A program made the translations under genes and the position numbers. Below the pieces are notes generated by a model. That model was given only the letters and a program-made list of their open reading frames with translations, did not search any database and was not told where the DNA came from. From a virus, in IMG/VR virus record IMGVR_UViG_3300036780_000400, positions 1-48,577 of that record: a DNA stretch of 48,577 nt; one strand, written 5' to 3'. Below are positions 1-45,893 of the stretch, one piece after another (position 1 is the stretch's first letter; every line of letters begins with the position of its first letter).

Positions 1-1272
1 CTAAGCCGGGAGTTCCAACTGGACGATGTTTGCCGCACTGATACGCGCGGTTTCGAACCAGGCCCTTGCGAGATCCTTCGTGACAAGCCGATCGCTGAAC
101 GTTCGGATCTTCCGGTAGTTTGCCCGGAGTTTGGCGACGCTGGTATTGGCGATGTGAGCCACATGCACTTCGTCATCGGTATCGGCCAGGAGGTATGTGA
201 TGTAGCTCCGACGGAGGACGTTTTTGTAGTACGGCAAACCGTATTTGGAACGCAGTCGCGCGGTGAAAGCGACGAAACCTTTTTGCGGACAGATCGGGCC
301 GGACCTGCCTCGATATTGGGCCAGCCAATCCGCGAGGGACGGGGAGATCGGGATCGTCACCCGCTGCTTGACCTTGGATTTTCTTGCGGGCAACTCGATG
401 AGGCCATCGAGCCAATGGACGTCCTCCCAAGTGAGGCGTTGCGCCGCCACGCCGCGCACGTTGGCGAATGCCGAGATGGCCAGCCATGGCAACCAATCGC
501 GTTCGTGCGCCCAGACGGATTCCAGAGCACGCCGCAAATGCTCAGGATCCCAAACTTCCTTAGTTTCCGTAACGGGCAGGATGGCCTCGAGTGCATGCGC
601 GGCGGTATCGAGCTTCGTCGGCAGGAAACGGCGCCGCCGGGCGAAATTGAAAAACGTGAGCAGCTCGCCGCGGATTTGTTTGCGTCGAAAATCCGAGGAC
701 GGCCGGAACTCACCCCGGATCTTTTGACCTGCGGAAAAAAGAAAGGCCTCCAAGTCGGCAGTGGTTACTTCCGCCACGGGTTTGGACCCATGGGCGAGAG
801 CCAGCCTTTTTAGATCCTTGTGGAAAACGGTGCGGTAGGCCTCGGAGCGCGGCCGTATGGCATTTTCAAATTCCGCGATGACGGCCGACAACGTCGCGGC
901 CGGCGCGGCGCAAGCATTGTGGAGGCGGTAGAATCGCGCGGCCTCCATCAACGACACGGCGCCGAGCTCTTTCCGCGCGGCGACGTATTCCCGCGCAGCC
1001 ACGTCGACCGATATACGGTCGCCAAGCCCTTTCAAAGCGTCAATCGCGGCGAGATGGCTACGGAGATCGGCTCCGGAAAGTTCGGCCGCTTCCGTGCGCC
1101 CGTTGTGAATATCGACGGAGATTTTTTGGAGCTTCTGGCGGAGCCTTTGTTCGTTGGCCGCCCGGATCAGCTTGAGCTTGTTCCCCACGCGGGCCCAAGT
1201 CTTTAAAAGGCGGCCGCCGTCTATCGAGCAGACCCGATAGGTAATACGTTCAACGACGATGGTCCGAGCCAT
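1..1272 (-). CDS. int: Tyrosine recombinase (phage integrase)
   Basis: This 423-residue protein has the layout of a phage tyrosine integrase: an N-terminal arm-binding part, a SAM-like core-binding domain around residues 120-235, and a catalytic domain from about 240. The first catalytic Arg is R273 in NVRG, and the beta-hairpin Lys lies near 298-300. The HxxR box reads N351-V-L-R354, so the His is replaced by Asn while the Arg is kept. The usual GH before the nucleophile reads A375-N376, and Tyr386 is the likely nucleophile. It lies one base downstream of the exported protein gene and reads outward, so the attachment site is expected just left of the window. It should catalyse integration and excision of the prophage to its right. 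Confidence 0.9.
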   Translation of the reverse strand: MARTIVVERITYRVCSIDGGRLLKTWARVGNKLKLIRAANEQRLRQKLQKISVDIHNGRTEAAELSGADLRSHLAAIDALKGLGDRISVDVAAREYVAARKELGAVSLMEAARFYRLHNACAAPAATLSAVIAEFENAIRPRSEAYRTVFHKDLKRLALAHGSKPVAEVTTADLEAFLFSAGQKIRGEFRPSSDFRRKQIRGELLTFFNFARRRRFLPTKLDTAAHALEAILPVTETKEVWDPEHLRRALESVWAHERDWLPWLAISAFANVRGVAAQRLTWEDVHWLDGLIELPARKSKVKQRVTIPISPSLADWLAQYRGRSGPICPQKGFVAFTARLRSKYGLPYYKNVLRRSYITYLLADTDDEVHVAHIANTSVAKLRANYRKIRTFSDRLVTKDLARAWFETARISAANIVQLELPA

Positions 1273-2449: not shown

Positions 2450-2746
2450 TTATTCATCTCCCGGAGGTCCATAGGTCGGCCCCGGATCTTGGGCCGCACG
2501 CTTTTGCGGGGGCGGCATAGGAACGATCCTGGCCGTCTTTTCGTCCGGGAACGCGGCGTCGGCTACGACGCGCTCGATATTCCAGTCCACGCGGCGCAAT
2601 GCCTCGATGCCGATTCCCATCGCCAAACGCATGATGTCCTGCTTGCTTAAACCCAGCAAGGCGGCGGCGTGTTGGACGCGCTCTTTTTGTTGAGCGTTGA
2701 GGCGGAGCGGAATTGAACGTGACGGCTTTCCGGTGGGCTTTGCCAT
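2450..2746 (-). CDS. Ribbon-helix-helix (Arc/CopG-like) regulator, leftward
   Basis: This 98-residue protein has a short basic N-terminus, then an RHH fold at about 12-55. The strand IPLRLN is followed by a helix (AQQKERVQHAAALLG) and the GLSKQDIMRLAMGIGIEALRR helix-turn-helix portion. The C-terminus is proline-rich. It is clearly homologous to the divergent protein at 2825: they share IPxR, GLSxQDxMR, MxIG and LxR. It probably binds the operators between the two genes and represses one or both promoters, with its own promoter and an operator overlapping its start region. The ATG lies only 7 nt after the predicted -10 box, so the mRNA is probably leaderless. It may be the lysogeny repressor. 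Confidence 0.75.
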   Translation of the reverse strand: MAKPTGKPSRSIPLRLNAQQKERVQHAAALLGLSKQDIMRLAMGIGIEALRRVDWNIERVVADAAFPDEKTARIVPMPPPQKRAAQDPGPTYGPPGDE

Positions 2747-2753
2747 GGGCGTT

Positions 2754-2781
2754 TGTATAGCTGAGTAAGAATCTTATTCAA
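2754..2781 (-). promoter_or_regulatory. Leftward sigma70-type promoter of the RHH repressor gene
   Basis: On the minus strand TTGAAT (2781-2776) and TATACA (2759-2754) are separated by 16 bp. Only 7 nt separate the -10 box from the ATG at 2746, so transcription should start at or next to the start codon. Confidence 0.6.
2762..2780. promoter_or_regulatory. Operator-like palindrome A (TGAGTAAGA-A-TCTTATTCA)
   Basis: Two 9-bp arms around a single central base form an inverted repeat with one mismatch. It occupies the spacer of the leftward promoter, where a bound RHH dimer would block RNA polymerase. This suggests autoregulation. Confidence 0.6.
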
Positions 2782-2789
2782 CTTTTTTC

Positions 2790-2818
2790 TTGCATGAGAT
2801 GACTACGAAACGTATTCG
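2790..2818 (+). promoter_or_regulatory. Rightward promoter of the early operon
   Basis: TTGCAT (2790-2795) and TATTCG (2813-2818) are 17 bp apart. The expected transcription start coincides with the ATG at 2825, again implying a leaderless first gene. The -10 box is weak, so activation or derepression may be needed. Confidence 0.4.
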
Positions 2819-2828
2819 TCTCTCATGC
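2792..2828. promoter_or_regulatory. Nested operator-like inverted repeats B
   Basis: An outer perfect 8-bp inverted repeat (GCATGAGA at 2792-2799, TCTCATGC at 2821-2828) encloses an inner one (ACGAA at 2805-2809, TTCGT at 2815-2819). Together they cover the -10 box and the start codon of the rightward RHH gene. The halves differ from palindrome A, so the two repressors may have separate sites. Confidence 0.55.
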
Positions 2829-3031
2829 CTAAAGAAAAACTGTCCAAAGATCTGAGCACTTCGATTCCCGTTCGGATTCCGAAGAAGCTCGAAAAGCAGT
2901 TCCGCGAGGGCGTTGTTAAAAGCGGTCTGAGCCAGCAGGACCTCATGCGCAAGAGCATGGAGATCGGATTACCCCGCCTGCTTCGGGCCCTCGAACAAGC
3001 CGTGTCCGTGGAAGAACCGGCGGCGGCCTAA
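2825..3031 (+). CDS. Ribbon-helix-helix (CopG-like) regulator, rightward
   Basis: This 68-residue protein consists almost wholly of an RHH domain: the strand STSIPVRIP, a helix (KKLEKQFREGVVKS) and GLSQQDLMRKSMEIGLPRLLRAL. It is a paralogue of the leftward protein at 2450 and starts the early plus-strand operon. By position it corresponds to a Cro-like protein opposing the leftward repressor. No Shine-Dalgarno sequence precedes the ATG, which sits inside the right arm of an inverted repeat and at the predicted transcription start. The role is inferred from homology to its divergent partner and from layout. Confidence 0.75.
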   Translation: MPKEKLSKDLSTSIPVRIPKKLEKQFREGVVKSGLSQQDLMRKSMEIGLPRLLRALEQAVSVEEPAAA

Positions 3032-3057: not shown

Positions 3058-3417
3058 ATGAGCGCTCAAGAAAAAGCGTCTGGGCCTTTGCGCCTCGAAA
3101 TTCCGGCGGAAGTGATTGCCGCGGCGATTCGCGAGGGGGTGCGAGATGCCCTGGCGGATGGGATTCGCGCCGAGGCGCGGGCTTTCCTGGAGGAATATTT
3201 TGGGTGCCTGAACAAGGCGGAGATCGCGGCTTTCCTGGGGGTGAGCGAGCGGACGGTGAACGAGCTTTGGAAGGATCACACGCTGCCCAAGGATACGAGC
3301 CTGGGAGAAAAGAATCCGCGGGCCTGGCTGCCGGCGCTCAAGGAAGTCCTGGCGGCCGGCCGGATCAAGGCGCGCACGGCCGGAGCGGCACCGCGCGTCC
3401 TTAGAACTGCGGCCTAG
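3058..3417 (+). CDS. Helix-turn-helix DNA-binding protein, excisionase-like
   Basis: This 119-residue protein has an N-terminal helical part and a helix-turn-helix at about 51-75 (LNKAEIAAFLGVSERTVNEL), followed by a short wing-like stretch containing KNPRAWLP. The pattern fits MerR/excisionase-type domains that phages use to direct excision or regulate early genes. It is the second gene of the early operon. It could be the excisionase for the integrase at the left end, or a regulator. Confidence 0.65.
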   Translation: MSAQEKASGPLRLEIPAEVIAAAIREGVRDALADGIRAEARAFLEEYFGCLNKAEIAAFLGVSERTVNELWKDHTLPKDTSLGEKNPRAWLPALKEVLAAGRIKARTAGAAPRVLRTAA

Positions 3418-8840: not shown

Positions 8841-9085
8841 TAAAGCTGACACCAAGACTTTTCATGCCGGCTGGCGCCGGGGGGCAACGGGAGATCCGTA
8901 GCGCACGAGTATACACGTGCGTTCTGGCCTCGGCGCACAGCGAAGCGATGGCCGCGGCGGTCGGGAGCTCAAATACCCGCTCTCGCCGCCGCGGCCGGGG
9001 GGGGGGCCTCGGCATGGCTCCTCCCTGCAATTTTAAAACGGCCTCGGGAAATCTTGGCCGCCGCACGGGAGGCCTCAAGCCTTGA
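8837..9085 (+). CDS. Possible small early protein interrupted by a G10 tract, 82 residues
   Basis: The frame is bounded by an ATGA overlap at its start and a TTGA overlap with the replication gene at its end, which supports it. The protein sequence is unremarkable (MIKLTPRLFMPAGAGGQREI) and becomes Arg/Gly-rich where a run of ten G bases (8997-9006) is read. The tract could slip during replication or sequencing and change the frame, so the C-terminal half is uncertain. Confidence 0.4.
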   Translation: MIKLTPRLFMPAGAGGQREIRSARVYTCVLASAHSEAMAAAVGSSNTRSRRRGRGGGLGMAPPCNFKTASGNLGRRTGGLKP

Positions 9086-10215
9086 GTAAAGAGATTTACG
9101 TGCGACGCGCGCAGGCGCTGGACCGCGAGATGATCATCCACCGGGTGCCTGACCAGGTGCGCCGGGTGTTGGGAGTCATCCGGGCGCTGAGTTGGGACAC
9201 GGAGCGGGACGCGGCGCCGATCCGCGACCAGCGGACGCTGGCGGTGGCGGCGCGGATGAGCGAGGATGATTGCAGCCGGGCGATCGCGGAAGCGCGGCGC
9301 ATGCAGGTGTTGCGGATCGAGAAGTTCGCCGGCTCCTATTGGTTCGAGTTGCTGCCGGACTCGGCGATCTGGATCGAGCGGAGCACGACGAAAGTGCTGG
9401 TGGATGTGGAGGGGGAGCGAAAACGCAAACGGTCGACGGAGGGAAAGAGCCGGCGGGCGTCGACGCCGGAGCAGATCGAGGAATGCCGGGCGGCCTGGGC
9501 GATGCTGCTCGAGGACGGCGATCCGGAGCAACGCAAGCTGGCGATCGCCGACAAGCCCACGCATCCGCCGATGGGCGACGGCGGGTTCCGCGATGCGATG
9601 GCCGAAACGAGCCGGGAACAGGCGGATGCGCGTCTCCCGAAAACTTGGGAATTTCCCAAGTACGGTGAGCCAGCGGTCGCCAGTTTGCCGAAAAACTTGG
9701 GAATTTCCCAAGTATCGGCGGTTAATGCGTCTCCCGAAAACTTGGGAATTTCCCAAGTTACACACGCGGGCGCGGGCGCGCGTGTGTCATGTCATGACTT
9801 GAGTACTGACTTGAGTCAGAATCAGACGTCTAGGGTACCGAGTACACAAGAGACCAGCGTCGCTGCAGCTGCTGACGGTGACCGCAGGGGCGCTTCGGAA
9901 ACCGCTGTCGCGGGGGCTCCCAAAGCGGAACGGATCGAAATACCCTGGGGGTCTCTCCACGAGGATTTGTGGAACGACGTGGTCGAGGTTTGTCTCCCGG
10001 GCGACATCACCTTCAAACAGGAGGAGGACTGGCGCGCGAGAATCCTCTCCAATGCCCGCTTGGTCCGGGGAGCGGTGCAGGAAGTGCAGAGGATGAAGAA
10101 GGAAGGAAAGGTCAAGAAAGCGGGCAATCCTGGAGGTGTCCTAAACATCATTTATCTCGATTGGTCCGGCGAACGCAGGACGGTGAAGCCGTGGATGAAA
10201 CCCAAAACCAAATGA
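9082..10215 (+). CDS. Replication initiator-like protein (phage O-type) with intragenic repeats
   Basis: This 377-residue protein starts at TTG with a GGAGG upstream. Its N-terminal domain (about 1-105) reads as a winged helix: VRRVLGVIRALSWDTERDAA, then a recognition segment (RTLAVAARMSEDDCSRAIAE) and the strand GSYWFELLP. A variable linker (about 185-270) is low in complexity and is encoded by palindromic DNA repeats. A C-terminal helical domain (about 275-365) follows. The layout of DNA-binding domain, repeat-bearing linker and C-terminal domain matches replication initiators such as lambda O, whose gene contains the origin. The gene directly downstream is an ATPase. No nuclease or primase motif is seen. 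Function is inferred. Confidence 0.65.
   Translation: MSKEIYVRRAQALDREMIIHRVPDQVRRVLGVIRALSWDTERDAAPIRDQRTLAVAARMSEDDCSRAIAEARRMQVLRIEKFAGSYWFELLPDSAIWIERSTTKVLVDVEGERKRKRSTEGKSRRASTPEQIEECRAAWAMLLEDGDPEQRKLAIADKPTHPPMGDGGFRDAMAETSREQADARLPKTWEFPKYGEPAVASLPKNLGISQVSAVNASPENLGISQVTHAGAGARVSCHDLSTDLSQNQTSRVPSTQETSVAAAADGDRRGASETAVAGAPKAERIEIPWGSLHEDLWNDVVEVCLPGDITFKQEEDWRARILSNARLVRGAVQEVQRMKKEGKVKKAGNPGGVLNIIYLDWSGERRTVKPWMKPKTK
9630..9818. other. Candidate replication origin inside the initiator gene
   Basis: Three identical palindromes ACTTGGGAATTTCCCAAGT lie at 9643-9661, 9695-9713 and 9740-9758. Copies 1 and 3 share 32 identical bases. The first is read in a different frame from the other two (TWEFPK versus NLGISQV), so DNA rather than protein is conserved. 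A 9-bp inverted repeat follows (ACACACGCG at 9760-9768, CGCGTGTGT at 9779-9787), then two direct copies of TGACTTGAGT (9795-9804, 9807-9816). Confidence 0.65.
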
Positions 10216-12044
10216 ATCTGAAACTCTGCGACGAACTCTCTCTGCCGCTCGATATCGTGACGACGCGCATCGCCATCTACGGGACGAGCGGATCGGGGAA
10301 GACGGCTTTCGGCCGGTTGCTGGCGGAAGCGGTGCACCGCGCGGGTCACCGGTTTTGTGCGATCGATTTGAAAAACGATTGGTGGGGTTTGAAGAGTTCG
10401 GCCGACGGGAAGACGGCCGGCATTCCCGCGGTCGTCTTTGGTGGACCAAAAAAGGATGTGGCTTTGTTTCCTGATGCCGGCGCGGTGGTGGCGGATACAG
10501 TGTGCGCGATTGAGCAATCCTGCATCGTGGACCTGGACGAGCTGAGCAAGGGGAAGCAGCTGGTGTTTCTCACCAAGTTCATGGAGCGCTTGTATGATGT
10601 GAATCGCGAGCCGTTGCTGCTGATCGCGGATGAAGCGGATCGGTATGCGCCGCAAAAGGCGATGAGTGTGGAGGCGAACATTTCCCTCGGCGCGGCGGAA
10701 GATATCTGCCGGCGCGGCCGCAAGCGCGGCATTGGCTCGATGTGGATCACGCAGCGGACCGCGGTATTGAATAAGAACGTGGCGGATATCTGCGATCTCA
10801 CCGTGGTGTTTCGGACGCCTGGTGCGCGGGACCTGCACGAGCTGGAGGATCGAGTGGCGCGGATCGCCGATAAGGAGAGCACGGCGGAAGTGATGCGCCT
10901 GGCGCCAGGCCTGGCGGATGGGGAGGCGATCTTTCTTTCATCGCATCCGAAGTTACGCGATCACTTGCCGGCGAACGCGCGGCCGGTGCAGCTGCCATTG
11001 CCGGGCACCTATGATTCGAGCGCGACGCCTGGCGTGGGCACACGGCGCGTGGAGCCGAAGGTGCTGGCGAAAACGGATCTCGCGGCGATCGAGAAGCAAA
11101 TGGCGTCGCAGATCGAGCGGGCGAAGGATGAGGATCCGGCGCAATTGCGGAAGCGGGTGGGGGAGTTGCAGCGAGAGAATGCCAAGCTGGAGACGGAGAT
11201 CGCCAAAAAGCTGCAGATCAAGGCGGTGGAGAAAACGCGGGTGGAGATCAAACCGGTGGAGAAACCGGTGCTGAAGGATGGACAGCTGCAGCGCGCGGAG
11301 AAATTGGCGGACCTGTTGGGAAGTATGTGCCGCGATCTCACGGCGGCGATCGGGAAGGTGGGTGTTGCGAATTCGCAACGAAGCTTTGCTAATTCGCAAC
11401 AGTCCCATGCGAATATGCAAAAAGATTTGCATAAAAGCGGCGACGGCGATCCGTGGTGCCAATGGTGCAATAGCTGGCACCCCAAGCCACGCGATGCTGC
11501 CCACAAAAAGGCTCTCATGTGCTTCGCTCCGGATAAGAAGCCAACTTCGGCGCAGCCGGACCGAACGCATGGCCCCGGTCGCGGAGCGAGCCTGGGCGGC
11601 GGGGAACGGCGGGTATTGATTGCGATTGCCCAGCATGAGCACGGTGTGACTGCAGAGCAATTAACTGTCCTGACGGGTTACAAGCGGAGTTCGCGGAACA
11701 CGTACCTGCAGCGGCTCATATCGACGGGCCGGGCGGAGCGCGCCGGCGATCGCATTGTGGCCACGCCTGCCGGCGTGGAGGAACTCGGGGATGATTACGA
11801 GCCGTTGCCGACGGGTGAGGAGCTGCGGCGCTACTGGCTGGCGAGATTGAGTGGTGGCGAGCGGGCGATCCTGCAATACGTCCTGGACGTGCATCCTGAA
11901 GCGGCCGATCGCGAGGCAATGGGGGCTCAGCTGGAGTATCAGAGGAGTTCGCGGAATACTTACATTCAGCGGCTGCAGGCGCGGGAATTGGTCTGGTCGG
12001 ATCGCGAGGGTCTGCATGCGTCTTCTCAATTCTTTTCCAAATGA
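10212..12044 (+). CDS. HerA/FtsK-superfamily P-loop ATPase with C-terminal tandem winged-helix repeats
   Basis: This 610-residue protein has a Walker A at residues 24-31 (GTSGSGKT), an IDLKNDWWGL segment near 51-60 typical of HerA-like domains, and a Walker B near 135-143 (LLLIADEAD). RRGRKRGIGSMWITQRTAVL forms the conserved sensor-like stretch after it. A coiled coil (about 295-350), a CxxC-containing segment (DPWCQWCNSWHP) and two related C-terminal helical repeats follow, each with RSSRNTY(L/I)QRL. It probably acts as a DNA translocase or helicase in replication with the initiator it overlaps (ATGA). Classical DnaB or DnaC features are absent. Confidence 0.75.
   Translation: MNLKLCDELSLPLDIVTTRIAIYGTSGSGKTAFGRLLAEAVHRAGHRFCAIDLKNDWWGLKSSADGKTAGIPAVVFGGPKKDVALFPDAGAVVADTVCAIEQSCIVDLDELSKGKQLVFLTKFMERLYDVNREPLLLIADEADRYAPQKAMSVEANISLGAAEDICRRGRKRGIGSMWITQRTAVLNKNVADICDLTVVFRTPGARDLHELEDRVARIADKESTAEVMRLAPGLADGEAIFLSSHPKLRDHLPANARPVQLPLPGTYDSSATPGVGTRRVEPKVLAKTDLAAIEKQMASQIERAKDEDPAQLRKRVGELQRENAKLETEIAKKLQIKAVEKTRVEIKPVEKPVLKDGQLQRAEKLADLLGSMCRDLTAAIGKVGVANSQRSFANSQQSHANMQKDLHKSGDGDPWCQWCNSWHPKPRDAAHKKALMCFAPDKKPTSAQPDRTHGPGRGASLGGGERRVLIAIAQHEHGVTAEQLTVLTGYKRSSRNTYLQRLISTGRAERAGDRIVATPAGVEELGDDYEPLPTGEELRRYWLARLSGGERAILQYVLDVHPEAADREAMGAQLEYQRSSRNTYIQRLQARELVWSDREGLHASSQFFSK
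11364..11432. repeat. 21-bp-period palindromic repeats inside the ATPase gene
   Basis: GTTGCGAATTCGCAAC (11364-11379, perfect palindrome), TTTGCTAATTCGCAAC (11385-11400) and CATGCGAATATGCAAA (11406-11421) start exactly 21 bp apart. A degenerate fourth copy appears near 11427. They encode a 7-residue repeat of the form xANSQxS. The period is two helical turns, as for protein-binding iterons. Confidence 0.5.
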
Positions 12045-14876: not shown

Positions 14877-15704
14877 AGTCGAAAGCAGGCGCCCGCAAAA
14901 GCGCGAAAACAAAAGGTTCGCAGCCGATCGGCGCCGGCGCCGGCGAAATCGCGAAAGGTATCATCAGATCGAAAGCGACCACTCCAGAACGGCGGCCGCT
15001 ACCACGGCACGCCGTACCGCGCCAGCCAGGCCGATTACGCCAAGACCTACGGGAAATCGCTCCCCACCATCAAACGCTGGTGGAAGGACGGCCGCCCACT
15101 CGACGACCCCGACGCCATGGGCGAGCTGCTGTCCTCCCGTGGCCGCAAACCAGGCGAGCGCGTCACCATGGCCGGCGAACCATGGGAACGACCCGACGAA
15201 GTCAGCGCGGGCACGGCAGCCCACCAGGAAACGCCAGGCGATATCCCCGTCACTCTCGACGAGTCCTTCTTCGCCGGCCTCGGTTTTCTCGCCGCGATCG
15301 AGCGCCTGAAAAAGTCCGAGCGCGAACGCTCGGCCGCCTACTTCGCCGCCATCCGGCAAAAGCTCCCGTCGATCTACATCCAGAACCGTTTCAAGGAATG
15401 GATCTGCGTCATCGAGCCCCTGCGCAAGCTGGCCAAGGACGAGCCCGAAATCCGCAAAGCCAACGACCTCACTGTCGACAAAACCGAGATGGACGCGGCC
15501 ATCGCTGTGATCTTCAACGGCTTTCGCCAGGCCGCGCGCAATCTCCCCAGCCGCGCCGCCGGCAAGCTCATCGGTCTCACCGAGTTCGCCGAAATCGTCG
15601 ATATCCTCGAGGCGGAGATCGATGTCCTCTTCCGCGCGCTCACGAAATTCACCCTCGATGAAGCGGCCGCCGCCAAAGCCGCGGAGGAAAGCGCCGCCCC
15701 GTGA
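14874..15704 (+). CDS. Terminase small subunit-like protein
   Basis: This 276-residue protein has a very basic N-terminus (about 1-40, many Lys/Arg/Ala/Pro). An HTH follows at about 47-85 (YAKTYGKSLPTIKRWWKDGR then PLDDPDAMGELL). The middle has an acidic region and helices (LGFLAAIERLKKSERERSAA). It lies immediately upstream of the large terminase and overlaps it by GTGA, as expected for the DNA-recognition subunit. The same HTH pattern occurs in the early protein at 7411. Confidence 0.75.
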   Translation: MSRKQAPAKARKQKVRSRSAPAPAKSRKVSSDRKRPLQNGGRYHGTPYRASQADYAKTYGKSLPTIKRWWKDGRPLDDPDAMGELLSSRGRKPGERVTMAGEPWERPDEVSAGTAAHQETPGDIPVTLDESFFAGLGFLAAIERLKKSERERSAAYFAAIRQKLPSIYIQNRFKEWICVIEPLRKLAKDEPEIRKANDLTVDKTEMDAAIAVIFNGFRQAARNLPSRAAGKLIGLTEFAEIVDILEAEIDVLFRALTKFTLDEAAAAKAAEESAAP

Positions 15705-17830
15705 GAAAAGCCCTCGCCATCATCGCCGCTTGCGCGCAGTTCGCCTTCCAGGTCTCCGAGCGGCTGCGGCCCTGCACCTGGCTTTCCCGGCACGTGGAGA
15801 TCCCGGCCATCACCGGCGCCCTCGAGCCCGGCCCGCTCGATACCTCCCGCGTTCCGCCCACCGAAGGCCTTTACGACCTCCTTTTTCAGCGCCACGTCCA
15901 TTTCTTCACCTTGGCCAAGTCGGCCCGCGTCGGCGGCACGCTCTTTTCCATCGGCGTGGTCCTCCACCAGATCGCCAATGATCCCGGCCCCATTCTTTGG
16001 GTCGATCCTTCGCGAAGCAGCGCGCGGCAATTCTTCCGCCGCGAGCTCGAGCCGTTTCTCCTGGCCTGCAAACCCATCGCCGACCAGGCGCTGCGCGACA
16101 AAGAGCACTGGACCGCTTCCCAATGCTTTTTCCGCGGAGGATCCTACATCCGCCTCGCCGGCGCCGGCAGCCCCAACGAACTCGCCGGCTTCCAGGCGCG
16201 CGACGTTGTCATTAATGAGGGCGACAAGGTCCATCACACGACCAAGGGGGAAGCGCCGGCCCACGACCTCGCGATCGCGCGCTCCAAGCAGTTCCGGCAC
16301 ACCCGCAAAATCATCGAGAATTCCACGCCGACGGACGAACACGGCCCGACGTGGACGCGCTTTCTCAAAGCCTCCCAGCATCACTGCTATTTGCCCTGTC
16401 CGCATTGCTCGGAGAAGAAAAAGCGCCGACTTGCGAAAAATCGAAAGTCATCGATTCCCGCTCGCCCTGAGCCCGGGCGATCGCCGCAGAGTTACGAGCC
16501 TCATCTCGCCGGCTGGCAGCGCCTCACCTTCTCTCCCAAGGAAGAGGAAGTCCCCTTCGATATCGACCTGGTGCCGCTGAAACGCGGCGAGACCCGCCTC
16601 GAAAAAACCGGCCAGTTTCGTTTCGATCACTGCCGCCAGGTCGAGACTCGCGAGACCGAACCCGGCAAGTTCGAGCCCGTCCCCATCGGTTGGGACTATG
16701 AGGAAATGCTCAAGTCTACCTGGTATGAATGCGCCCATTGCGGCAGCCGCATTGAGCACACCCACCTCACTTGGATGCTCCCGCGCTATCGCTGGACCGC
16801 GCACAACCCCAAGGCGCCGCGCGATCATATCTCCGCCCATTATTGGGCCGCCTATAGTCCGTTCGAGCATTGGGGCGAAATCGCCAAAAAGTTCGTCCTC
16901 GCCGGCCACAACCCAGGCGCCCTGCACGACGTTTTTAATAACGATTTCGGGTTGCCATTCAAACTCGTTCCCACCGAGGTCGAGGAGGCCGACGTCACCC
17001 GGCTGCAGAACGCCAGCCCGCACTATCTCCGCCGGCAGATCCCGCTTTGCCCCGAGCTGCTCACCATGACTGTCGACGTCCAGGAGCAGACCGGCGACAA
17101 TCCTTTCTGGTGGACCGTCTGGGCGTGGGGCATCCATTGGGACCAGCCCGGCTGGCCCACCTGGTGCGCCCTGGTCGACTACGGTTCCGCGGTCTCCTGG
17201 GATGAAATCGAAGAAGTCGCCGGCATCGCTCCGCTGTCGAAACATTCGCCCGGCGATCCCGACCGCTTCCACACCTGGAACTACCGCGACCCGCAGACCG
17301 GAAAGCTCGAATCCTTCACCATCTACGCCGGCCTGGTCGATTCCGGCGACCAGGCGCAAAGCGACGCCAACGTCTATGACTTCTGCCGGCGTAACTCCCA
17401 TATCTTCTCCCCGTCCAAAGGCGGCGGCCGCAACCAGCTCTTCGGCCAGACAATCCGGCGCAGCCCCCAGGAGAAAGATACCCCCAACCAATTCGAGCTC
17501 ATCTGGTACCGCAGCGACTTCTTTGCCCAGCGTGTCTACCGGCAAATCATCAAGGACCGGAAGATATCTCGCTATCTCCCGCGCGACTTAGACGCCGATT
17601 TCATCGATCAGATCACCGACGAGCGTACCGTGTGGAAAAAAGGGAAGTTAGTCTGGGAAGCGCAAAAGAAACGAAATCACCTCGGCGACTGCTGGAAGAT
17701 GAACGAGGTCCTCGACGGCACCGTCGAGGAAGTCTTCGACGCGCTGCGCATCGAGCGCATGAACGCCGAGGAAGCCGCTCAAGTCACTGCGGACGAGTCA
17801 AACGCGCCGAAGAAAAAGCGCTCACCTTGA
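15701..17830 (+). CDS. terL: Terminase large subunit, GpA family
   Basis: This 709-residue protein matches lambda gpA-type packaging ATPases in size and layout. A Walker A-like AKSARVGGT lies near 72-80, and an INEGDKV (Walker B position) near 171-177. Two CxxC pairs (CPHCSEKKKR and YECAHCGSRI) bracket the domain junction. The nuclease domain occupies about residues 430-620, with TMTVDVQEQ as its first acidic motif. It cuts and packages concatemeric DNA with the small subunit upstream. The convergent minus-strand gene overlaps its last 9 bases. The family implies cos-type packaging. Confidence 0.88.
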   Translation: MRKALAIIAACAQFAFQVSERLRPCTWLSRHVEIPAITGALEPGPLDTSRVPPTEGLYDLLFQRHVHFFTLAKSARVGGTLFSIGVVLHQIANDPGPILWVDPSRSSARQFFRRELEPFLLACKPIADQALRDKEHWTASQCFFRGGSYIRLAGAGSPNELAGFQARDVVINEGDKVHHTTKGEAPAHDLAIARSKQFRHTRKIIENSTPTDEHGPTWTRFLKASQHHCYLPCPHCSEKKKRRLAKNRKSSIPARPEPGRSPQSYEPHLAGWQRLTFSPKEEEVPFDIDLVPLKRGETRLEKTGQFRFDHCRQVETRETEPGKFEPVPIGWDYEEMLKSTWYECAHCGSRIEHTHLTWMLPRYRWTAHNPKAPRDHISAHYWAAYSPFEHWGEIAKKFVLAGHNPGALHDVFNNDFGLPFKLVPTEVEEADVTRLQNASPHYLRRQIPLCPELLTMTVDVQEQTGDNPFWWTVWAWGIHWDQPGWPTWCALVDYGSAVSWDEIEEVAGIAPLSKHSPGDPDRFHTWNYRDPQTGKLESFTIYAGLVDSGDQAQSDANVYDFCRRNSHIFSPSKGGGRNQLFGQTIRRSPQEKDTPNQFELIWYRSDFFAQRVYRQIIKDRKISRYLPRDLDADFIDQITDERTVWKKGKLVWEAQKKRNHLGDCWKMNEVLDGTVEEVFDALRIERMNAEEAAQVTADESNAPKKKRSP

Positions 17831-44549: not shown

Positions 44550-44649
44550 TTCTGAGGATTCTTCACCACGCCTGAGTAAGGAAGCGCCTTTCGCGCGCCA
44601 CCGTGCAAATGAATCGAAGGTCGGGTAGGTTCGAATCCTACCTCAGGAG
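44550..44649 (+). tRNA. tRNA-like sequence or degenerate tRNA
   Basis: The T arm is perfect (GTAGG-TTCGAAT-CCTAC, 44625-44641), and the following CTCAGGA (44642-44648) pairs with TTCTGAG at 44550-44556 (seven pairs, one G-U). The 93 bases between acceptor arms are too long for a normal tRNA and a normal D arm is not seen. GCGC-CTTTCGC-GCGC could be an anticodon arm (Glu-like). It may be a 3' fragment left by integration, a decayed tRNA, or a divergent phage tRNA. The reverse strand gives the tell-tale spurious peptide EVGFEPT. Confidence 0.4.
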
Positions 44650-44656
44650 CGTCTTT

Positions 44657-44738
44657 AGGATCACTCTGATCCTCAGGCACTTGCTCCAAAAGGAAGGCTC
44701 CTTTTGCCTCCAACTGCCAGTAGAATTGCCAGTAGATT
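44657..44738. other. Attachment-site-like region before the second integrase
   Basis: It contains the hairpin AGGATCA-CTC-TGATCCT (44657-44673), the hairpin CAAAAGGA-AGGC-TCCTTTTG (44687-44706) and a tandem repeat of 12 bp, TGCCAGTAGAAT (44715-44726) and TGCCAGTAGATT (44727-44738). Tandem arm-type sites next to an integrase gene are usual in att regions. Confidence 0.45.
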
Positions 44739-44849
44739 CCTCGACTTGGAACTGCTCCACGACAATTCGTGCGAACCCTTCCAATGCTCGCCGACTACTC
44801 GGTAACGCTTCCGGCCCGGCCTGTTGTTCACTTCAACGAGCACCAGTCC

Positions 44850-45893
44850 ATGCAGAAATTCTACCGCCTTTATCGCCGCCGCAGTGGCGTTTACTACGCT
44901 GAGAACATCTCCAACCGGCGGCAGGAGTCTTTGAAGACCAGAGATCGCGCAACCGCCGAGCAATTGTTGCAGGCCATGAACGCTGCCGTTCAGCAGCCCA
45001 TGCTCAATCTGGCGGTAGCTCGGGTTCATCTTGCTGCTCACGACCCCAAGATGAATGTTCGACCGTGGCAGGATGTGATGGACGCCTTCAGCCAACACGG
45101 CCGGAACTCCACTCGGGAGCGGAGCGTGCGGGCATTCAAAAGCTCAGGATTCGATCCGATCAGGAACCAGCCGATTGTCCAAACGACCGCTGAAGCTTTC
45201 CTAAAACTGATGAAGGTGAATGGAGTGTCTCTCGCTCACTACCTCCGGCGAATTCACAATCTGGCCATCAATCTCGGCTGGCTCCCGTGGCCTATTCTCC
45301 ATAAGGCGACTTGGCCCAAGCCCCGCCACACCAGCAAACGAGCGATCAGCCAGAAAGAATATGACGCGATCATCAAAGCTGAGAGCAACAAAGAGCGGCG
45401 GCACTACTACGAGCTACTTTGGGAGATCGGCTCAGCCCAAATGGATGCAGCTCAACTCACCGCTGAGAACATCGATTGGATAAACATGACTCTGATCTAC
45501 AACCGGAGAAAATTGCGTGAAGAGGCTGAGCCTTGCGTTTTGAGAATCGGCCCCAGATTAGCGACCATCCTCAGGAGCCTTCCACAGTCTGGGCCACTGT
45601 TCCCTTCCATCATTAAAACCGGGAGCAAGGAACGAGCAGCCGAGTTCCGGCGTCGATGCCGGTTGCTAGGATTCAAAGGCATCACCCTGCACTCCTTCCG
45701 CTACTCGTGGGCCGAGCGCGCCTTCCGTGGCGGATACCCGGAACGGTTCGCCCAAGCCGCCCTTGGCCATGCGAGTAAAGCGGTTCATCGAGCGTATTCT
45801 CGTGGGGCGCGAGTGCTCTGCCCACCGCTTGAGGATTACGAGGCGTCAACCGAACCAAAGCTCATTCCATTTCCCCTTTCCTCAGGCTCGTGA
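44850..45893 (+). CDS. int: Tyrosine recombinase of the second element
   Basis: From the ATG at 44850 (the longer frame from 44769 starts with an unnatural sequence) the 347-residue protein carries an N-terminal YRRRSGVYYAENISNRRQES arm domain and a catalytic domain with H281-S-F-R284, G306-H307 and Tyr316 (VHRAY). The position of the first catalytic Arg reads GSAQMDAAQL, so Gln197 replaces it. It reads away from the tRNA-like site. Catalysis may depend on a family-specific active site. Confidence 0.8.
   Translation: MQKFYRLYRRRSGVYYAENISNRRQESLKTRDRATAEQLLQAMNAAVQQPMLNLAVARVHLAAHDPKMNVRPWQDVMDAFSQHGRNSTRERSVRAFKSSGFDPIRNQPIVQTTAEAFLKLMKVNGVSLAHYLRRIHNLAINLGWLPWPILHKATWPKPRHTSKRAISQKEYDAIIKAESNKERRHYYELLWEIGSAQMDAAQLTAENIDWINMTLIYNRRKLREEAEPCVLRIGPRLATILRSLPQSGPLFPSIIKTGSKERAAEFRRRCRLLGFKGITLHSFRYSWAERAFRGGYPERFAQAALGHASKAVHRAYSRGARVLCPPLEDYEASTEPKLIPFPLSSGS

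Follow-up and report, generated by a model that had tools for sequence, protein, structure and literature searches.

A divergent pair of paralogous ribbon-helix-helix proteins as the likely lysis-lysogeny switch of a temperate Verrucomicrobiota phage

Gene arrangement at the locus

The window, meaning the whole stretch of DNA that was analysed, is a virus record of 48,577 bases that carries terminase, portal, protease and tape-measure genes. Its terminase has relatives in viral contigs as well as in a genome of the Spartobacteria (Verrucomicrobiota), and both the host phylum and the route to the related loci described below were obtained via this protein. The window appears to be a prophage of a Verrucomicrobiota bacterium. 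Its left end comprises, in this order, an integrase gene, one or two small genes, gene A, a short spacer and gene B, which opens a long rightward gene block. The genes and the spacer are as follows.

1-1272, minus strand: tyrosine integrase on A's side (PHROG 1, E=3.7e-13), resembling the integrases beside related pairs
2450-2746, minus strand: protein A, 98 aa, facing the integrase and without an S24 domain (open reading frame, homology to B, profiles and relatives)
2747-2824, no strand: divergent promoter/operator spacer, 78 nt (ends of the open reading frames and comparison with relatives)
2825-3031, plus strand: protein B, 68 aa, at the head of the rightward early block (open reading frame, homology to A, structural model)
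3058-3417, plus strand: helix-turn-helix or excisionase-like protein downstream of B (weak matches to HTH_17 and to an excisionase-regulator profile)

The initial annotation had described A and B as homologous genes transcribed apart from a 78-nt spacer. This is confirmed by the open reading frames, by the position of the spacer and by the alignment of the two proteins, which share 17 identical residues over 44 aa (39%, E=5e-8). At the DNA level the genes show 73% inverted similarity across 44 nt.

The assignment of both proteins to the ribbon-helix-helix (RHH) fold rests on weaker evidence. Protein A matches the Pfam profile RHH_1 only below threshold (E=0.013), and no match to Pfam profiles was obtained for B. 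The RHH_1 cut-off of 20.5 bits is passed by relatives, namely the B protein of L013 (25.6 bits) and the A protein of L014 (21.6 bits). Profile matches of A and B in the PDB include TraY, CopG and VapB26, together with designed repeat proteins and chance hits. A Foldseek search with the model of B returned mostly RHH proteins, Arc among them, at E-values of about 1 or worse. The models of A and B are two-helix monomers of modest confidence (pLDDT 75 and 66), in which the strand region is unpaired. As the monomer models are modest and the Foldseek E-values poor, the fold is supported but not proven. We take both A and B to be RHH proteins on the basis of profiles and models; dimerisation and DNA binding have not been shown.

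Further features were observed elsewhere in the record. An ATPase-like protein of the early region (10170-12044) matches PHROG 2666, a family annotated as terminase large subunit, while the terminase itself is located at 15701-17830. The open reading frame at 9082-10215 contains three copies of a 32-nt repeat (9630-9758) with the palindromic core CGAAAACTTGGGAATTTCCCAAGT. Near the right end lies a second tyrosine integrase (44769-45893; PHROG 1, E=2.6e-21), and the GC content drops there from about 0.62 to 0.50-0.57; the final 4 kb of the record possibly derive from the host or from a different element. A sequence resembling the 3' end of a tRNA (GGTTCGAATCCTACC) lies immediately left of this integrase, at 44600-44660, and points to an attachment site. 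Searches of the right-hand end with Rfam and ARAGORN gave no tRNA or other RNA gene.

Related pairs, integrases and S24 fusions

B, an RHH-S24 protein and alignments of the A type served as queries in the search for relatives of the pair. Scans of viral contigs using A, B or the integrase singly gave no relatives, and tblastn of A and B against the phage collection gave no match at E<=1. In Verrucomicrobiota genomes and viral contigs 17 further divergent RHH pairs were found, which makes 18 with the window: L013 (G259), L010 (G315), L014 (G324), L054, L055, L056, L057, L062 (G483), L067 (G548), L065 (G031), L070 (G239), L071 (G492), L075 (G401), L098, L103, L106 and L107. Two other loci, L104 and L108, are near copies of L103. 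The spacer measures 75-80 nt in 10 of the 18 pairs and 84-111 nt in the others, and in L107 a gene of 67 aa is inserted between spacer and B. In a tree that contains many weak branches, the A proteins of 12 of 14 loci form one group (support 87/87); the exceptions are L071 and L075, in which the labels A and B are arbitrary. Since the A proteins otherwise group together, the duplication that gave rise to A and B looks old, as far as sequences can tell. The pair of L014 sits in an ordinary chromosome (G324) with no phage genes near it, and a third RHH-like gene (L022, 4234-4419) adjoins it.

The initial annotation had proposed a search for RHH pairs beside integrases in related genomes as a check. 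There are 13 core loci, consisting of the window, L013, L010, L014, L054-L057, L062, L067, L098, L103 and L106. An integrase is located on A's side in 12 of them, the exception being L014; the stretches that were inspected contain none on the side of B. For L065, L070, L071, L075 and L107 a neighbouring integrase was not established.

In three relatives the A protein is fused to a Peptidase_S24 domain of the LexA/CI type (L013, 218 aa; L010, 230 aa; L106, 202 aa). All three domains keep the Ala-Gly site, the Ser of the SMEP motif and the downstream Lys. No match to an RHH-S24 protein was found in plasmids. Other relatives harbor antirepressor genes downstream of B (L056, L088 of G548, and L103). 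The window record contains no S24 domain, in A or elsewhere, and no antirepressor was recognised among its tested early open reading frames. It also holds no further HTH_3 protein above the cut-off, the only match being a sub-threshold one in the late region.

RHH proteins are often antitoxins or relaxosome accessory proteins, and weak matches resembling NikA, RelB and ParD were obtained here. A and B could therefore be accessory proteins (antitoxins, relaxosome helpers or excision factors) that regulate only themselves and form no switch. However, no toxin or relaxase was recognised beside either gene, and antitoxins would not be expected as facing paralogs with a fixed spacer, an integrase on one side and S24-fused relatives. 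The antitoxin, relaxosome and excision roles were rejected because no partner genes were recognised, and we regard a purely accessory function as very unlikely.

Promoters, palindromes and predicted transcript starts

The following elements were assigned within the spacer.

2754-2759, minus strand: -10 element of the promoter toward A, TATACA, separated by 7 nt from the ATG of A (promoter scoring)
2763-2779, no strand: O_A, operator-like palindrome GAGTAAGAATCTTATTC, overlapping the -35 element toward A (palindrome scan)
2776-2781, minus strand: -35 element toward A (TTGAAT), beginning 35 nt upstream of A's ATG and overlapping O_A (scoring and spacing)
2783-2788, plus strand: T-tract that directly precedes the TTG and is retained in most relatives
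2790-2795, plus strand: -35 element toward B (TTGCAT), whose TTG begins exactly 35 nt before B's ATG (spacing in relatives)
2804-2814, flanks 2799-2820, no strand: O_B, operator-like palindrome with the core TACGAAACGTA, overlapping the -10 element toward B
2813-2818, plus strand: putative -10 element of the promoter toward B, TATTCG, a weak site separated by 6 nt from the ATG of B (sequence; weak score)

In the window alone these elements are not compelling. A general sigma-70 promoter scan of the spacer found nothing. The highest-scoring site toward A (p=0.14), TTGAAT-N16-TATACA, ends 7 nt before the ATG; the site toward B, TTGCAT-N17-TATTCG, ends 6 nt before the ATG but scores weakly, and the top-scoring site in this direction lies elsewhere. 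The palindromes reach p=0.03. Because promoters and palindromes are only marginally above chance here, their significance comes from conservation across the relatives.

This conservation is most evident on the B side. In 12 of the first 14 spacers a TTG begins exactly 34 or 35 nt before the start of B (expected 0.53, p=7e-16), and the same holds for all four spacers found later, so that the total is 16/18. Among other open reading frames of the same loci, a TTG at this distance precedes only 10 of 252 (4%). Some starts required a choice: in L065 and L070 the second ATG was adopted with the -10 element in view, those of L055, L098 and L106 were picked by homology, and the distance in L107 was measured to the inserted gene instead of B. 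With unambiguous B starts only, the proportion is 10/12. Toward A, a TTG at -34 to -36 is present in 6 of 14 spacers (p=6e-5). The base preceding the start codon is a C in 13/18 B genes (p=1e-6) and 11/18 A genes (p=5e-5). A Shine-Dalgarno match was detected in one of 28 A and B genes; among the window's control genes, judged by a looser rule, 14 of 29 had one.

A leaderless message is to be expected when the promoter spacing places the predicted transcript start on the start codon and no Shine-Dalgarno motif precedes it; the sequences show this spacing, and such motifs are nearly lacking. The fixed TTG spacing, the C at -1 and the missing Shine-Dalgarno motifs together provide strong indirect evidence that transcription of B begins at its start codon, and fair evidence for the same on the A side, although the transcript starts remain predictions. 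The mRNA of lambda cI is a known precedent for a leaderless message. The initial annotation had placed both -10 boxes 6-7 nt from the ATG; this geometry is borne out by the relatives, whereas the promoters of the window taken alone are weak. The weak single-window scores and the better-scoring site toward B elsewhere leave room for a switch without leaderless messages, in which transcripts start further upstream or from other promoters and the TTG is part of an operator. However, 16 of 18 loci keep the TTG at a fixed distance from the start codon although the operators differ, and the C at -1 and the lack of Shine-Dalgarno motifs likewise point to leaderless starts. We thus consider a switch with longer leaders quite unlikely.

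The occurrence of two palindromes per spacer, which the initial annotation had noted for the window, recurs in the relatives. Compared with dinucleotide shuffles, the 14 spacers are enriched both for the best palindrome (Fisher p=2.6e-9) and for the best two (9e-11). In L010, L013, L056 and L057 two similar sites of the GTAG...CTAC type are located about 33 bp apart, and in the window O_A and O_B are unlike in sequence. The palindrome on the B side had first been read as ACGAAACGTATTCGT. This reading was replaced by TACGAAACGTA, on which the operator is now centred, because its core is shared by the viral relative L098; L103 has the same core with one change.

A putative switch and its relation to known systems

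A divergent switch can be expected to consist of two repressor-type genes that diverge from a common operator region, with the integrase on the lysogenic side and the early genes opposite. The window fulfils both points. In our judgement a temperate Verrucomicrobiota phage is likely to use A and B as its lysis-lysogeny switch, with two operators and leaderless messages, although this remains a prediction without any bench test. The position of the integrase, the S24 fusions, the antirepressor genes after B and the lack of another S24 or HTH_3 protein make A most likely the lysogenic repressor and B the Cro-like lytic one. According to this model, A is made leftward toward the integrase and would take the role of CI or Mnt, whereas B, which heads the early genes on the right, would act like Cro or Arc. 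Both proteins are presumed to bind, as RHH dimers, the two palindromes of the 78-nt spacer and to repress each other; the site preference of each is unknown. As O_A covers the -35 element toward A and O_B the -10 element toward B, occupancy would decide which promoter fires, and for both promoters the predicted transcription start coincides with the start codon or lies one base from it at most. In L013, L010 and L106, A would probably be inactivated through RecA-stimulated self-cleavage via S24, and antirepressor genes follow B in some of the relatives with a short A. Since A of the window lacks S24 and no antirepressor was recognised nearby, the induction of this phage remains unexplained.

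The initial annotation had proposed a CI/Cro-like decision by paralogous RHH proteins and called it unusual. The first part gains comparative support from the 17 further pairs, the side of the integrase and the S24 fusions. The second has to be qualified. Primary phage switches are usually helix-turn-helix systems, but in phage P22, which additionally has the c2 repressor, Mnt and Arc are divergently transcribed. Mnt (lysogenic) and Arc (lytic) are short repressors of about 40% homology in the immI region, where they control an operon with an antirepressor (PMC7549136); their RHH domain has been noted (PMC10516654), and immI is a secondary immunity region within the late operon (PMC8022706). 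Because of this precedent, a phage with paralogous RHH repressors is no novelty as such. Three aspects appear to be new: that the pair apparently serves as the main switch next to an integrase, that the leaderless geometry is conserved, and that RHH and S24 domains are fused. No published description of such fusions was found, and hardly any work on the genetics of Verrucomicrobiota phages, in a search limited to open-licence literature.

The resemblance to immI, two short homologous repressors of which one is lysogenic and the other lytic, raises the question whether A and B are likewise only a secondary immunity module that controls an antirepressor or another early gene, with the main repressor encoded elsewhere or missing from the fragment. 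Mnt and Arc are exactly such a pair, L056, L088 and L103 have antirepressor genes after B, and the record may be incomplete. However, no other CI-like repressor was found in the window, the integrase adjoins A in most loci, and fusion to S24, as in three relatives, typically marks a primary repressor. A secondary module is thus unlikely, even if it retains some weight. The locus also departs from immI in several respects: the pair adjoins the integrase, no other repressor was found, its messages look leaderless, S24 fusions occur in some relatives, and no antirepressor gene was recognised downstream of B among the window's tested early open reading frames, in contrast to the three relatives named. 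Homology of A and B to Mnt or Arc was not detected (tblastn, phage collection, E<=1).

Lambda CI is an S24-type repressor. The locus resembles CI/Cro in its divergent repressor genes between integrase and early genes, its common operator region, the leaderless message known for cI and the S24 domain on A in three relatives. It differs in that the proteins are RHH instead of helix-turn-helix proteins and clear paralogs, that A of the window lacks S24, and that two palindromes take the place of lambda's three operators. Another Arc-type RHH protein, YosL of SPbeta, promotes lysis within a lysis-lysogeny network (PMC10516654). Unlike A and B, YosL is not reported in a divergent RHH pair, and the master repressor of SPbeta is MrpR.

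Beyond the window, we lean towards the view that a lineage of Verrucomicrobiota phages uses paralogous RHH repressors with two leaderless messages as its primary switch, some members having an SOS-cleavable RHH-S24 protein. A recurrent family of duplicated RHH proteins, some with S24, would show that the logic of CI and Cro can be rebuilt on another fold, and would allow one to ask how two paralogs split their roles. A TTG 34-35 nt before the start codon would provide a simple rule for finding switches and leaderless genes in Verrucomicrobiota.

The repressor of the Akkermansia phage Chambord, from the same host phylum, shares a related S24 domain with L013 and L010, but its N-terminal DNA-binding part looks like a helix-turn-helix. 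The RHH-S24 proteins look like the result of a domain swap or loss relative to such HTH-S24 repressors. Several S24 repressors of Verrucomicrobiota, L025 (1495-2301), L048, L049, L050 and L109 (5770-6570), seem to contain an RHH-like stretch between the helix-turn-helix and S24 parts, and the Chambord repressor belongs to this set. The stretch in L025 matches TacA1 (E=0.0084), hinting at an HTH-RHH-S24 protein as the ancestor of the RHH-S24 fusions.
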